Below are positions 12,428 to 53,105 of a stretch of 64,000 bases of DNA, one piece after another. Position 1 is the stretch's first letter; each line of letters opens with the position of its first letter. Under the pieces are notes generated by a model that was not told where the DNA came from, did no database searches, and saw only the letters and a list, made by a program, of their open reading frames with translations. Origin of the DNA: Clostridia bacterium (GTDB lineage Bacteria; Bacillota; Clostridia; Christensenellales; Borkfalkiaceae); contig JAFTPK010000009.1 in assembly GCA_017463325.1 (NCBI GenBank), positions 1 to 64,000 on the forward strand. Reading direction: 5' to 3'. A program made the translations under genes and the position numbers.

Positions 12428-12722
12428 TAATCAAAAAGGCGTTGATGGGAAAAAAATTCGCGAATTTGCAGTTTCAGAGAGCCGACGTTAGGTGCGAGTC
12501 GGTACGCGGCGCGAAAGATAGCTCCTCCCGTAGCCTCCGACAGAACGGCGGAAAAACCGCTCAGTAGATTCGGACGGGCGCTCCCGTGACAGAGCAAACC
12601 CTATGAACAGGGTGAGAGGGTGCCTTTGGGCATCAAAAAGAGTGGTACCGCGGAGAAAAACCTTCGTCTCTTTACGGCGCGTATAATTTGGCGCGCGTAA
12701 AACAGACGGAGGATTATTTTTT
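12428..12722 (+). ncRNA. T-box leader (probably leucine-specific) upstream of leuA
   Basis: This tRNA-sensing leader reads the charging state of a tRNA and decides whether the operon is transcribed. Seen here: a Stem I AG-rich bulge and distal loop (CAGAGAGCCGAC then GGTGCGA, 12474-12497), a candidate specifier codon CTC at 12522-12524 followed by CTCCCGTAG in the usual place, the conserved T-box AGTGGTACCGCGG at 12641-12653 whose UGGU pairs with the uncharged NCCA end, and a terminator with arms CCTTCGTCT (12661-12669) and AGACGGAGG followed by ATTATTTTTT. CTC is a Leu codon and leuA follows, so leucine is the likely signal; the exact codon is inferred from position. Confidence 0.92.
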
Positions 12723-12741: not shown

Positions 12742-14400
12742 ATGAAAAATACGAACAAGTACGTGAAACAGTTTTTCCTGCCCGAGGGCGTGAGCATGGA
12801 GTGGATGAAAAAGTCGTATATCGACAAGCCGCCTATTTGGTGTAGCGTCGATCTTCGCGACGGTAATCAGGCGCTCATTATCCCTATGAGCTTAGAGGAA
12901 AAGCTTGAATTTTTTACGCTGCTTTGCGAGATCGGCTTTAAGGAGATCGAGATCGGGTTCCCTGCGGCGAGTGAAACGGAGTATGAATTTTGCCGCGCGT
13001 TGATCGAGCGGGGGTTGATTCCTGACGACGTTACCATTCAGGTATTGACCCAAGCGAGAGATCATATTTTGAAAAAGACCTTCGAGGCGATCGACGGGGC
13101 GAAACACGCCGTCGTGCATTTGTACAATTCTACCTCCGTCGCGCAAAGAGAGCAGGTGTTTAGAAAGGAGAAAAAGGAGATTGTCGAGATCGCCTTAAAG
13201 GGAGCGCGGCTTTGCGCGGAATATAAAAAGAAGGCGAAAGGGAAAATCACCTTTGAGTATTCCCCCGAGAGCTTTACGGGTACCGAGCCTGCATTTGCTC
13301 TTGAAATTTGCAACGCCGTATTAGACGTTTGGAAGCCGACGGCTGAGAACAAGGTGATTATCAACCTCCCCGTCACCGTTTCCCATTCCATGCCGCACGT
13401 GTACGCAAGTCAGGTGGAGTACATGGACAAGAATTTGAAATACCGTGAAAACGTTATCATTTCTTTGCACCCGCACAACGACAGAGGGTGTGCGGTGGCA
13501 GACAGCGAAATGGGGCTTTTAGCGGGGGGCGACCGTATTGAGGGGACCCTCTTTGGTAACGGCGAACGGACGGGCAACGTTGACATTATCACCCTCGCGC
13601 TCAATATGTATTCGCAAGGGGTGGAGCCGAATTTGGATTTTTCCAACCTGCCCAAAATTACCGAGGTGTATGAAAAGGTTACCCGTATGCGGGTGAGCGA
13701 ACGCCAACCCTATTCGGGACAGCTCGTTTTCGCGGCGTTTTCCGGGTCGCATCAGGACGCGATTGCAAAGGGCATGAAATACCGCTTGGAAAAGGGGTCG
13801 CAAACGTGGACGGTGCCCTATTTGCCCCTCGATCCGTCGGACGTAGGCAGAAAGTACGAGGCTGACGTGATCCGTATCAATTCGCAATCGGGCAAGGGCG
13901 GGATCGGTTACGTCCTCGAAACGCAGTTCAAGCTCGTACTGCCGCCCAAGATGCGGGAGGTGTTCGGTTATCATATTAAGAGCATTTCCGACCACGCGCA
14001 TAAAGAGCTTTCCCCCCAAGAGGTGTATGATATTTTTGTGCGAGATTTCGTCAATCTGCGCGATAAGTTAGACGTTGTGGAAAAGCGGTTTGAACAGACA
14101 GACGGAGAGAAAGTAAAAGGGGAGATTACCCTGCGCTATCACGGCGTGGAAAAGACGTACGCCGTAGAGGGCAACGGGCGGCTTGATTGCGTATGCAAGG
14201 CCATTATTGAAGCCACGGGCGAGGAATTTACCATTGAAAGTTACGTAGAGCACGCTCTGGAAGAAAAATCCTCCTCCAAGGCAGCCTCGTACGTGAGTAT
14301 CGTCAAAAAGGGCGCGACCTACTGGGGAACGGGTATTCACAGCGACATTATGACCTCGTCGGTGCGGGCGCTCGTAAGTGCGGTGAATAAGACGATTTGA
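12742..14400 (+). CDS. leuA: 2-isopropylmalate synthase
   Basis: It condenses acetyl-CoA with 2-oxoisovalerate, the committed step to leucine. 552 residues of the long LeuA2 type (actinobacterial/fungal style), starting after AGAGAGGTGA (12729-12738). The HMGL-like catalytic barrel carries SVDLRDGNQ (35-43) and the metal-binding HPHNDRG (about 243-249). The C-terminal third (about 430-552) fits the LeuA allosteric dimer domain, so leucine feedback is expected in addition to the T-box. It is the first gene of the run leuA-ilvB-ilvN-ilvC-ilvD-leuC-leuD-leuB. Length and the LeuA2-style N-terminus separate it from the other synthase in the window at 25540. Confidence 0.93.
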   Translation: MKNTNKYVKQFFLPEGVSMEWMKKSYIDKPPIWCSVDLRDGNQALIIPMSLEEKLEFFTLLCEIGFKEIEIGFPAASETEYEFCRALIERGLIPDDVTIQVLTQARDHILKKTFEAIDGAKHAVVHLYNSTSVAQREQVFRKEKKEIVEIALKGARLCAEYKKKAKGKITFEYSPESFTGTEPAFALEICNAVLDVWKPTAENKVIINLPVTVSHSMPHVYASQVEYMDKNLKYRENVIISLHPHNDRGCAVADSEMGLLAGGDRIEGTLFGNGERTGNVDIITLALNMYSQGVEPNLDFSNLPKITEVYEKVTRMRVSERQPYSGQLVFAAFSGSHQDAIAKGMKYRLEKGSQTWTVPYLPLDPSDVGRKYEADVIRINSQSGKGGIGYVLETQFKLVLPPKMREVFGYHIKSISDHAHKELSPQEVYDIFVRDFVNLRDKLDVVEKRFEQTDGEKVKGEITLRYHGVEKTYAVEGNGRLDCVCKAIIEATGEEFTIESYVEHALEEKSSSKAASYVSIVKKGATYWGTGIHSDIMTSSVRALVSAVNKTI

Positions 14401-50630: not shown

Positions 50631-50659
50631 TTGACATTATTCAAGATAAATGATATTAT
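50631..50659 (+). promoter_or_regulatory. tRNA-Pro promoter
   Basis: TTGACA (50631-50636), 17-base spacer, TATTAT (50654-50659). Confidence 0.75.
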
Positions 50660-50699
50660 GTTAAAGCTGTCGGGCGGAAAAGCTCGTAGGCAAACATAT

Positions 50700-50776
50700 T
50701 GAGGCGTAGCGCAGTTTGGTAGCGCGCTTGGTTAGGGACCAAGAGGTCGTGGGTTCAAGTCCCGTCGCCTCAACCA
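50700..50776 (+). tRNA. tRNA-Pro (anticodon AGG)
   Basis: Full cloverleaf: acceptor TGAGGCG / CGCCTCA, D arm GCGC...GCGC, anticodon stem CTTGG / CCAAG with loop TTAGGGA giving anticodon AGG (decodes CCU), T arm GTGGG-TTCAAGT-CCCGT, discriminator A and an encoded CCA (50774-50776). Proline AGG tRNAs are less common in bacteria than GGG or TGG types. Own promoter and terminator make it a single-gene unit. Confidence 0.95.
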
Positions 50777-50779
50777 AAA

Positions 50780-50827
50780 CAAGGCATTTATGCAATAAAT
50801 CATTGCATAAATGCCTTGTTTTTTTGT
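50780..50827 (+). terminator. tRNA-Pro terminator
   Basis: A 17-bp perfect stem, CAAGGCATTTATGCAAT / ATTGCATAAATGCCTTG, with a 5-base loop and seven Ts; unusually long and stable. Confidence 0.92.
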
Positions 50828-51055: not shown

Positions 51056-51084
51056 TTAACAAGATTTTGAGAAGATTGTATAAT
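51056..51084 (+). promoter_or_regulatory. Promoter of the candidate small RNA
   Basis: TTAACA (51056-51061), exactly 17 bases, TATAAT (51079-51084). The expected start, about seven bases later, falls on the first base of the closing stem at 51091. Confidence 0.8.
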
Positions 51085-51090
51085 AATTAA

Positions 51091-51256
51091 GCTAAACTTT
51101 CTGAATAGAACTATCATAGGTATAGTCTGGGTAGGACTATGCCATAATCGCTTTACAATCAACCCTATGGTAGTGAGTAAGAAAGTTTAGCAGCTTGCGA
51201 AATGGCATATGTTTCTATGGTGTCGTTTCGCAAGAAGCGGCACTTTTTATTTTTTT
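51091..51256 (+). ncRNA. Candidate structured small RNA, family not recognised
   Basis: About 165 bases with no usable reading frame. P1: GCTAAACTTTCT (51091-51102) pairs perfectly with AGAAAGTTTAGC (51180-51191). P2: ACTATCATA (51110-51118) with TATGGTAGT (51166-51174), one U-G pair. P3: GGTATAGTC-TGGGTAG-GACTATGCC (51119-51143). The P3 loop GGGT (51129-51132) can pair with ACCC (51162-51165), a possible pseudoknot. After P1 comes a terminator: GTGTCGTTTC-GCAA-GAAGCGGCAC (51220-51243) then TTTTTATTTTTTT. It is too short and differently arranged for 6S, tmRNA or SRP RNA. The downstream gene is on the other strand, so this is not a leader. Confidence 0.75.
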
Positions 51257-52074
51257 CAGTTTTTTTGATTCGTTCCTTGTTTCCTATATTGTGAAGGTGT
51301 TTTTCCGTTGCGTTGTTTGAAAACGTTGCAAAAGTAAGCTAAACTACTGAATCCACATTGTTCGCTGATTTGACTGATTGTCATTTTCTTTTCGAGCAAC
51401 ATTTCTTGGGCGAGCGATAAACGAGTGCTCAAAATATATTCCATAACGGATAAGCCTGTTGTCTTTTTGAATTTTCGGCAAAAATAATATTTACTCATAA
51501 ATACCGCGGTGCATATTTCATCAACGGTCAGCGGTTCGCTGATATGCTTGTTGATATATTCAATCGCTTTAAACACAAAATTCGAGGTGGTGGATACGGG
51601 CAAATTATGCATTGCGTATTTATCCAAATAAACCAATAGTTTTGCACATACGCTAACAAGCAACGCTTCAAAGTAGTGTTCGTCGCTTTGATGATTTTGT
51701 AGCTCTAAAAAAAGCGCACCTATTTTTTTCTGTTCGTGTGGGGGAATTTGCGCATAAACAAGTTTGTCGTTTTCAAAAAGATCCTTAAAACGATTGTTGG
51801 TATCGCAAATCGTTCGTATGGTTTCAAAGCGTGAAACGGATAGGAATAGTTTGTCGCGAATATATTCGTCTATGTTGTCAGGCACGGTGTAATGGGATTT
51901 TTTTGAGCCTACGAAATAGAGTGCGCCCGTCTTTAAAGGGCTTATTTTTTCATGGGTAACGAAACTTCCGTTGGCTTGATTTACGTATAAGAACATAACA
52001 CGGTTTCCAAACTCGTGCCAAATTTTATACATAGAATCTTTTCCTTGTTGATGATAGATAAACGTAGAGTCCAT
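51256..52074 (-). CDS. AraC-family regulator of the sialic acid genes
   Basis: 272 residues; starts at 52074 with AGAGGTGA (minus strand) upstream. Residues 1-150 are a ligand-binding cupin-like domain; about 168-268 hold two helix-turn-helix motifs (LTVDEICTAVFMSKYYFCRKFKK and MTISQISEQCGFSSLAYFCNVFKQ). Divergently transcribed from nanA with a 161-base shared control region, the standard layout for a local activator, so sialic acid or a derivative is the inferred signal. Its last codon abuts the T-tract of the candidate RNA coming from the other direction. Confidence 0.88.
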   Translation of the reverse strand: MDSTFIYHQQGKDSMYKIWHEFGNRVMFLYVNQANGSFVTHEKISPLKTGALYFVGSKKSHYTVPDNIDEYIRDKLFLSVSRFETIRTICDTNNRFKDLFENDKLVYAQIPPHEQKKIGALFLELQNHQSDEHYFEALLVSVCAKLLVYLDKYAMHNLPVSTTSNFVFKAIEYINKHISEPLTVDEICTAVFMSKYYFCRKFKKTTGLSVMEYILSTRLSLAQEMLLEKKMTISQISEQCGFSSLAYFCNVFKQRNGKTPSQYRKQGTNQKN

Positions 52075-52119: not shown

Positions 52120-52235
52120 AGCATGTTTTTTAAAAAAAGGCAATCACAATAAAAACAAAAGCAATATTTATATAGAAAATGTGAAAAAATTATATTATAA
52201 TGAATATAGCAAATATAAAAATAGGATGGAATGTT

Positions 52236-53105
52236 ATGGAAAAATTTAAGGGAATCTTTCCTGCGTTGTTAACTCCGTTTGACCAAAACGGCAAAATCAA
52301 TGAAGTTCAACTTAAAAAACTCGTGCGATTTAATTTAGAAAAAGGGGCAAAGGGCTTTTACGTTTGTGGTAGTACGGCAGAGGCATTTTTGCTTTCTACG
52401 GAAGAGAGAAAGCAAGTGATGGAAATTGTTAAAGAAAATGCGCCCACGGCAACGCTGATTGCGCACGTTGGGTCGGTAGACGAGAGAGTGGCGGTAGAGC
52501 TTGGCAAGTACGCAAAAGAGCTTGGCTATCACGCCGTATCTTCCGTTGCGCCTTTCTATTACAAATTCTCGTTTGAGGAAATTAAAAACTATTATTTCCG
52601 CGTAGCGGACGCATCTCAGCTTCCCATGCTCGTTTATCACTTCCCTGCTTTTTCGGGGGTAAACATGGGCGTGAAAGAAATTTCACAATTCTTGTTAGAC
52701 GATAGATTTATCGGTATTAAATATACGTCTAACGATTTCTTTACCATGGAGCGCTGTAAGACGGCTTTCCCTAACAAGCTTGTATATAACGGTTACGACG
52801 AAATGTTCCTTGCGGGGCTTTCCATGGGCGCGGACGGCGGAATCGGCAGTACGTATAATTTCATGACGGATAAATTCGTCAAAATCCAAAAGCTGTTTAA
52901 GGAGAACAAGATTGCCGAGGCGCAAACGTTGCAACAGGAAGTAAACGGCATTATCGCCGTGCTTTGCTCGATCGGCGTTATGCGGGCAGAAAAGGAAGTA
53001 CTCAATCAGCTCGGTTTTGATTTCGGTATTTGCCGCAAACCGTTTGGGGAGCCGACGGACGAACAGAAAAAGTTAATCGCTGAAAAAATTATTCCTTATT
53101 TATAA
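52236..53105 (+). CDS. nanA: N-acetylneuraminate lyase (DapA/NanA family aldolase)
   Basis: Probably splits sialic acid into N-acetylmannosamine and pyruvate. 289 residues from ATG 52236 (AGGATGG at 52223-52229). Family marks: YVCGSTAEAFLLSTEERK (the usual GSTGE is GSTAE here), the catalytic tyrosine in LVYHFPAFSGV and the Schiff-base lysine in GIKYTSNDF (about 163). DapA shares the fold, but the AEAFLL motif and the sialidase downstream favour NanA. Other sialic acid genes (nanE, nanK) are not present. Confidence 0.88.
   Translation: MEKFKGIFPALLTPFDQNGKINEVQLKKLVRFNLEKGAKGFYVCGSTAEAFLLSTEERKQVMEIVKENAPTATLIAHVGSVDERVAVELGKYAKELGYHAVSSVAPFYYKFSFEEIKNYYFRVADASQLPMLVYHFPAFSGVNMGVKEISQFLLDDRFIGIKYTSNDFFTMERCKTAFPNKLVYNGYDEMFLAGLSMGADGGIGSTYNFMTDKFVKIQKLFKENKIAEAQTLQQEVNGIIAVLCSIGVMRAEKEVLNQLGFDFGICRKPFGEPTDEQKKLIAEKIIPYL

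Follow-up and report, generated by a model that had tools for sequence, protein, structure and literature searches.

The structured RNA at 51091-51256 of the window (the whole stretch of 64,000 nucleotides of Clostridia DNA analysed here) is probably one copy of a multi-copy Clostridia family, predicted to act as a riboswitch-like transcription attenuator with a conserved promoter, antiterminator, terminator and two pseudoknots, a reading to which we assign a probability of roughly 0.7. Several conserved helices of this family exclude one another, as would be expected of a transcription attenuator in which two alternative folds have evolved.

The RNA in the window and its relatives

The original prediction for this stretch described a structured RNA with its own promoter, in which a 12-bp stem closes a 101-base fold that is followed by an intrinsic terminator, and as a whole it was confirmed, each of these elements lying where it had been placed (Table 1). 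Behind the promoter match, the segment has a folding energy of -58.3 kcal/mol, compared with an average of -35.1 for shuffled versions (z -5.8; none of 200 shuffles equalled it), and the P1 stem encloses 101 bases with P2 and P3 inside. The terminator with its GCAA tetraloop was likewise recovered next to the U-rich tract, yet it is absent from the minimum-energy fold, which instead contains a longer hairpin, P4, that overlaps it; with the terminator forced, the window copy folds at -56.2 kcal/mol, 2.1 kcal/mol worse than the P4 fold.

Table 1. Features of the RNA and of its immediate surroundings in the window
Feature	Position	Strand	Remarks
Promoter TTAACA-17-TATAAT	51056..51084	+	6 nt ahead of P1 first base; motif scan of the window; -35 TTAACA 51056-51061, 17-nt spacer, -10 TATAAT 51079-51084; 11/12 matches
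RNA transcript (inferred)	51091..51256	+	covariance-model match 51090-51249
P1 5' strand	51091..51102	+	partner 51180-51191
P2 5' strand	51110..51118	+	partner 51166-51174
P3 5' strand	51119..51128	+	partner 51134-51143
P3 loop, P3 3' strand and J3/2, GUAGGACUAUGCCAUAAUCGC	51131..51151	+	5' half of alternative long helix
UCGC of pseudoknot PK1	51148..51151	+	covariation
P1 3' strand	51180..51191	+	partner 51091-51102
P4 (antiterminator) 5' strand	51194..51208	+	partner 51220-51234
Tail GCGAAAUGGCAUAUGUUUCUAU	51197..51218	+	3' half of long helix
PK1 GCGA, in tail	51197-51200	+	
PK2 UUCUAU, in tail	51213-51218	+	
Intrinsic terminator stem-loop, GCAA loop	51220..51243	+	scan and folding
U-rich tract	51244..51256	+	read from sequence
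AraC-type regulator gene (HTH_AraC/HTH_18)	51256..52074	-	convergent with RNA
DHDPS-family gene	52233..53105	+	beyond regulator; first of sense-strand cluster

No Rfam 15 family matched over the window RNA at the gathering threshold, as anticipated when the RNA could not be assigned to 6S, tmRNA, SRP, RNase P or a riboswitch class, and matches below threshold were at chance level (best 18.5 bits, with 72 required). Thirty locus entries of relatives, some of them overlapping, gave only sub-threshold matches over the RNA (26.4 bits against 80.4, 27.2 against 46), and a known RNA family was rejected on this basis for the window RNA and its relatives alike. Other features seen on the forward strand of the window are a Gut-1 RNA (RF01706) at 735-807 (52.9 bits, barely above the threshold of 50), a T-box leader at 12433-12674 (103 bits) ahead of the ORF 12742-14400, and a tRNA-Pro (AGG) with a 20-pair hairpin terminator immediately behind it (50631-50822), with a promoter-like TTGACA-17-TATTAT upstream. 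By its sequence, the ORF 12742-14400 resembles a 2-isopropylmalate synthase gene, and the next ORF appears acetolactate-synthase-like.

A DNA search with the window RNA matched 8 of 61 genomes, the window's own included, and most of the matching loci share one architecture by eye. A covariance model built from 11 sequences (R1) matched 46 of the 57 genomes of the genus, with up to 11 copies per genome, as well as 68 of 396 genomes of the order and 29 of 391 of the class. R2, a further covariance model trained on 40 diverse copies, among them the window's and eight from other orders, matched 81 of the 391 class genomes at E <= 1e-4; E-values of both models are rough, and thresholds vary among the searches. 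R2 scores the window copy at 109.8 bits (E 6e-18) in a search of the window, a score obtained with that copy among its training sequences. When R2 was run on 398 genomes drawn from the phylum, the sole match was the window's own genome, which speaks for the specificity of the model rather than for a sharp taxonomic border, since some unmatched genomes in the sample belong to that class too. Titled genome records contain an exact 19-letter pattern in 36 stretches, of which 33 carry titles of Clostridia or Clostridiales MAGs, many from the gut of deer, goat and sheep; the three other records are gammaproteobacterial, Anaerolineae and Saccharibacteria.

The window's genome holds four family matches: the window copy, two copies ahead of genes for large proteins with surface-type repeats, and one remnant. 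The protein behind one of the two further copies carries BspA-type LRR_5 and Flg_new domains, and that behind the other MBG_3, Flg_new and Ig-like domains. Judged by eye, the remnant (L225, 7934-8075, on contig 15) has kept just the P1 3' strand, the tail and the terminator; at its 5' side it extends into the end of a metallophosphoesterase gene, and behind it lies a short ORF that looks by eye like a SLOG C-terminus. A phage or plasmid origin of the RNA was also considered and rejected, given that distant blastn searches of phage and plasmid records with the window copy and a search of IMG/VR with one exact pattern returned no match, both being weak tests for so divergent an RNA.

Covariation and mutually exclusive helices

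The family was analysed through 172 copies, the better-scoring part of all places found by R1 in the genus and the order, which remained of 182 model matches after removal of nine same-place repeats and one doubtful match (L141:5050, E 0.0096); an alignment of 173 rows includes the latter. For duplex tests, L141:5050 and rows whose P3 fell outside 18-32 nt or lacked the loop pattern were dropped, and the 162 remaining rows were reduced to 96 diverse representatives. A further alignment, A2, comprises 96 distinct rows and was fitted to P1, P3 and the terminator, hence favouring these helices; on it, 95.6% of their cells are paired and 19 of their 26 pairs are changed on both sides, which none of 500 shuffles matched.

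Two pseudoknots that are absent from the model were read off the alignment. PK1 joins UCGC of J3/2 with GCGA immediately 3' of P1, and PK2 joins GUAGRA of the P3 loop and 3' strand with UUCUAY directly ahead of the terminator. On A2, 93.0% of their cells are paired and 6 of 10 pairs are changed on both sides; no shuffle of 500 attained their paired share and covariation score, and 18 of 500 attained the count of pairs changed on both sides. Sliding the pairing by one column (+1) raises the number of both-side-changed cells from 18 to 43, but lowers the paired share to 41.6%. PK1 is locally misaligned in A2, and the column count for the two pseudoknots on this alignment is less clean than the duplex test, in which the duplex energy of each copy is compared with that obtained when partners are exchanged between copies, making an alignment of the partners unnecessary.

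Over the 96 diverse copies, this test yielded z values of -15.2 for P1, -16.8 for P3, -16.6 for the terminator, -13.4 for PK2, -6.8 for PK1 and -10.4 for P4, against -2.1 (A:G) to +1.6 for nine control pairs; P2 reached -39, one of its nine controls (P2a:F) standing at -2.9. P1, P2 and P3, for which compensatory changes had been named as support, all covary. The signals of the six helices other than P2 persisted when swaps were limited to the 15 nearest relatives, with a mean loss per swap of 3.10 kcal for the terminator, 1.74 for P1, 1.63 for P3, 0.86 for P4, 0.59 for PK2 and 0.33 for PK1. Controls under this restriction lost at most 0.16 kcal, although three of the eight (A:tailM, p 0.02; D:G, p 0.02; D:tailM, p 0.002) show that not every control is entirely null. 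When PK2 is extended into the P3 stem, the added part gives a weak signal under the same restriction (0.27 kcal, 0.56 of copies). The other orders contributed 23 copies (of 29 rows), among which every helix repeats with z values of -3.2 to -12.9, six controls ranging from -2.2 (X:H) to +0.2. PK1 is formed there by wholly different sequence, for instance GCUC with GGAGC. Further alternative pairings, X:F and D:F, which involve the strand immediately 5' of the P1 3' strand, behave likewise.

The original interpretation was borne out only in part, having missed both covarying pseudoknots and the antiterminator helix that overlaps the terminator. In their place it had proposed a GGGU/ACCC pseudoknot linking the P3 loop to the 3' flank of P2, which did not stand: the letters are complementary in the window copy, but GGGT in P3 with ACCC 3' of P3 occurs in 1 of 173 aligned copies, the window's own, and the P3 loop and that flank show no covariation whatever the letters (z +0.2, 96 copies).

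P4 pairs the tail with the 5' arm of the terminator. It shares bases with the terminator and with PK1 and is mutually exclusive with each, and both P4 and the terminator covary; in 81 of the 96 copies a potential for P4 of -5 kcal/mol or better and for PK1 of -3 kcal/mol or better are both kept despite the shared bases. P3 and the full PK2 helix likewise share the P3 3' strand. The family therefore displays the mutually exclusive expression-platform helices, here P4 and the terminator, that are a general feature of riboswitches. Calculated energies for the window copy are -19.4 kcal/mol for P4, -18.6 for the long helix between the P3 3' strand with J3/2 and the tail, -13.4 for P3 and -13.0 for the terminator, and in these calculations the four are predicted to be close rivals. 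P4 is already complete in the predicted fold of a transcript ending at 51236, in which the 3' arm of the terminator is still unfinished.

We propose that polymerase would start at P1, and that P1, P2 and P3 would fold first, after which the tail 3' of P1 could take either of two partners. Capture of the tail by J3/2 and by the loop and 3' strand of P3, through PK1 and PK2, would block the 5' arm of P4; the terminator would then form and transcription would stop. An uncaptured tail would instead pair with the 5' arm of the terminator as P4, and polymerase would read through. A metabolite or a protein might serve as the trigger by stabilising one of the two states; as a point against a ligand pocket, much of the conserved sequence is accounted for by pairing. 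Where a relative of the RNA is followed by a gene, often one for a surface-type or SLOG protein, that gene would be expressed upon read-through.

Downstream genes and competing readings

A same-strand ORF with a ribosome-binding site follows within 200 nt in 119 of the 172 copies, and within 60 nt in 96 of these 119, which makes the family chiefly a leader, often of surface-type genes. The conserved structured leader ahead of a gene that is general to riboswitches is therefore found in these 119 copies and not in the window copy. A different sorting assigned 118 of the 172 copies to a gene in cis and 21 to a next ORF in antisense, the rest consisting of 14 whose sense ORF is farther away or has a weak site, 13 that are upstream members of tandem arrays, four at contig ends and two with none. 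The earlier statement that the RNA is not a leader accordingly holds for the window copy, whose next gene lies on the opposite strand, and fails for most relatives examined.

Domain scans of the 119 downstream proteins, shortened to 400 aa, gave LRR_5 (BspA-type) in 47, YpsA (SLOG) in 12, collagen repeats in eight and Flg_new in seven; an export-like start was present in 71 by a simple rule of our own, 64 of them lipobox-like. LRR_5 matches number 21 to 106 per genome in eight genomes, and because this domain is common in these genomes anyway, most LRR_5 genes are probably without the RNA. Among 16 downstream proteins scanned from other orders, Cu_amine_oxidN1 was found in four (one below cut-off) and SLH and Flg_new in one each. 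Carriage of defence systems was rejected, PADLOC matches among the 119 proteins being scattered, with at most two members per model. Tandem arrays place two or three RNA copies ahead of one gene (L071 2129-2803, L083 1820-2305, L088 4208-4731 and others), and the tandem units mostly have their own promoter match and their own terminator. In one genome (G029), similar charged proteins of about 145 aa lie directly behind five copies (L054, L056, L057, L058 and L012), and the two that were scanned (L054 and L058) gave no convincing Pfam match. A small protein behind L092 bears a weak, below-cut-off likeness to Rho_N.

In the window itself, the AraC-type ORF has its 3' end at 51256, exactly where the U tract of the RNA finishes, and the DHDPS-family gene beyond it opens a sense-strand cluster that continues with a GDSL lipase and a BNR-repeat protein. 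As the window copy has no sense gene, attenuation there would act on antisense transcription or on nothing. In the former case, polymerase reading through would cross the AraC-type gene in antisense and probably lower the regulator. Three AraC HTH queries, taken from the window, L017 and L026, were searched against the 2-kb flanks of all 172 copies and matched at six loci, in each case downstream and on the strand opposite to the RNA; since the queries themselves came from three of the six, only the other three (L038, L117 and L130) are independent. Six further copies (L090, L097, L131, L135, L163 and L089) face a convergent double-HTH gene of Cro/CI type encoding about 155 aa, and at some of them a gene that is SLOG-like by eye lies beyond it on the RNA strand. 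Among the 21 copies with the next ORF in antisense, the window's included, at least nine face a regulator (three AraC-like, six double-HTH), which is a raw count. Descent of the regulator-facing copies from one inherited locus was rejected: over the HTH part, the AraC-like genes of L038, L017 and L026 share only 27-33% with that of the window, and the flanking sequences compared can be aligned across promoter and RNA alone.

For the window copy alone, a different history deserves consideration, namely that it once led a SLOG-like gene that has since been lost, leaving an intact but idle unit beside a regulator gene. The relative L002/L038 showed the highest DNA identity over more than 100 nt in the first search (80% over query positions 71-193), and its order is RNA, a gene resembling SLOG by eye, and an AraC-like gene on the opposite strand, so that the arrangement of the window copy may have arisen by loss of an intervening SLOG-like gene of this kind; the contig 15 match shows that a remnant does exist in the same genome. 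Nevertheless, the helices and promoter of the window copy are all intact, copies facing AraC-like genes recur in genomes G030 and G013 (L017 and L026), and the six copies facing a double-HTH regulator add to them. We regard this history as possible but doubtful.

Nor do we think it likely that the family consists of free-standing small RNAs acting in trans or binding a protein, for which the terminator would be a mere end and P4 would have no regulatory use. Such RNAs would fit the promoter match of at least 9/12 that lies immediately upstream in 155 of 171 copies (against 8.4% of shuffles), the -10 ending 5 nt ahead of the RNA match in 146 of them, as well as the strong terminator helix of all 96 representatives, the 13 copies of 172 that are upstream members of tandem arrays and the 21 of 172, the window's among them, whose next gene is on the opposite strand. 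They fit poorly with the 119 same-strand genes and their closely spaced ribosome-binding sites, and with the covariation of P4 with the very terminator arm that it would disrupt. A new class of c-di-GMP riboswitch, proposed because many target genes are adhesin-like, is highly improbable: many targets do resemble surface proteins, and c-di-GMP was suggested as a possible ligand of the SLH motif by its authors (PMC6429828), but GGDEF was not found in any of the eight genomes of the genus searched (71-95% complete), which makes c-di-GMP an unlikely trigger in this genus. GGDEF was present in all three genomes from two other genera of the order that carry the RNA; a search for the c-di-GMP-I riboswitch in the same genomes as the RNA gave no match, but neither did its control, so that this search carries no weight.

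Returning to the attenuator reading, we would extend it with less than even confidence to an undescribed major riboswitch class of Clostridia, present in about one fifth of sampled class genomes at up to 11 copies per genome, that senses a signal other than c-di-GMP by exchanging a P3 strand between its hairpin and the tail, governs a regulon of surface adhesins and SLOG proteins in sense, and in a second mode silences regulators by antisense read-through. A class found in 81 of 391 genomes, often in several copies, and without an Rfam match would rank among the larger orphan attenuator classes; if the extension is correct, some signal is tied to clostridial surface proteins. Both folds are defined in enough detail for a direct in vitro test of trigger and switch, and possible antisense control could be studied in the copies that naturally face a regulator.

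Comparison with known systems

T-box leaders (RF00230) exchange a terminator and an antiterminator within the leader, as is predicted for this family. Unlike them, the RNA at 51091-51256 gave no T-box match in the same scan that found one at 12433-12674, and none of the family's scanned targets is an amino-acid gene.

A literature search returned no published description of the RNA, and such terms for the target genes as were looked for are absent from the main text of PMC11109978, PMC8632094, PMC2864571 and PMC8040213. The closest parallel to the window copy in arrangement is AspocR, the antisense-acting cobalamin riboswitch of Listeria monocytogenes, which is reported (PMC9943018, PMC8079631) to be an attenuator that adjoins a regulator gene at its 3' end and is transcribed toward that gene, so that read-through is antisense to it. 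The window RNA is a different RNA, however, and its antisense transcript is only predicted. The triple-tandem c-di-GMP riboswitch (PMC4759541) is also reported to have structured leader copies arranged in tandem within a single 5' region; in the present family, by contrast, the tandem units mostly have their own promoter match and terminator, and GGDEF was not found in eight incomplete genomes of the genus.

The SLH motif is reported by Stav et al. 2019 (PMC6429828) as an orphan riboswitch candidate, partly from Clostridia, located upstream of genes for cell-surface SLH proteins; its 80 examples, which include Synergistaceae and Negativicutes, stand ahead of SLH genes in about 60% of cases. 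One family copy from another order (L216) precedes a gene for an SLH-domain protein, the only one among the 16 other-order downstream proteins scanned, and a similar gene lies behind L231, outside that scan. The family does not share the preference of about 60% of copies for SLH-domain genes: genes for BspA-type LRR, collagen-like and SLOG proteins are the commonest here, SLH being rare among those scanned and absent among the best 25 of the 45 Pfam families listed for the 119 downstream proteins, so that it can have at most a few members there. Compared by gene associations alone, the two could nevertheless be related or even the same RNA, the SLH motif being the nearest published candidate in setting.
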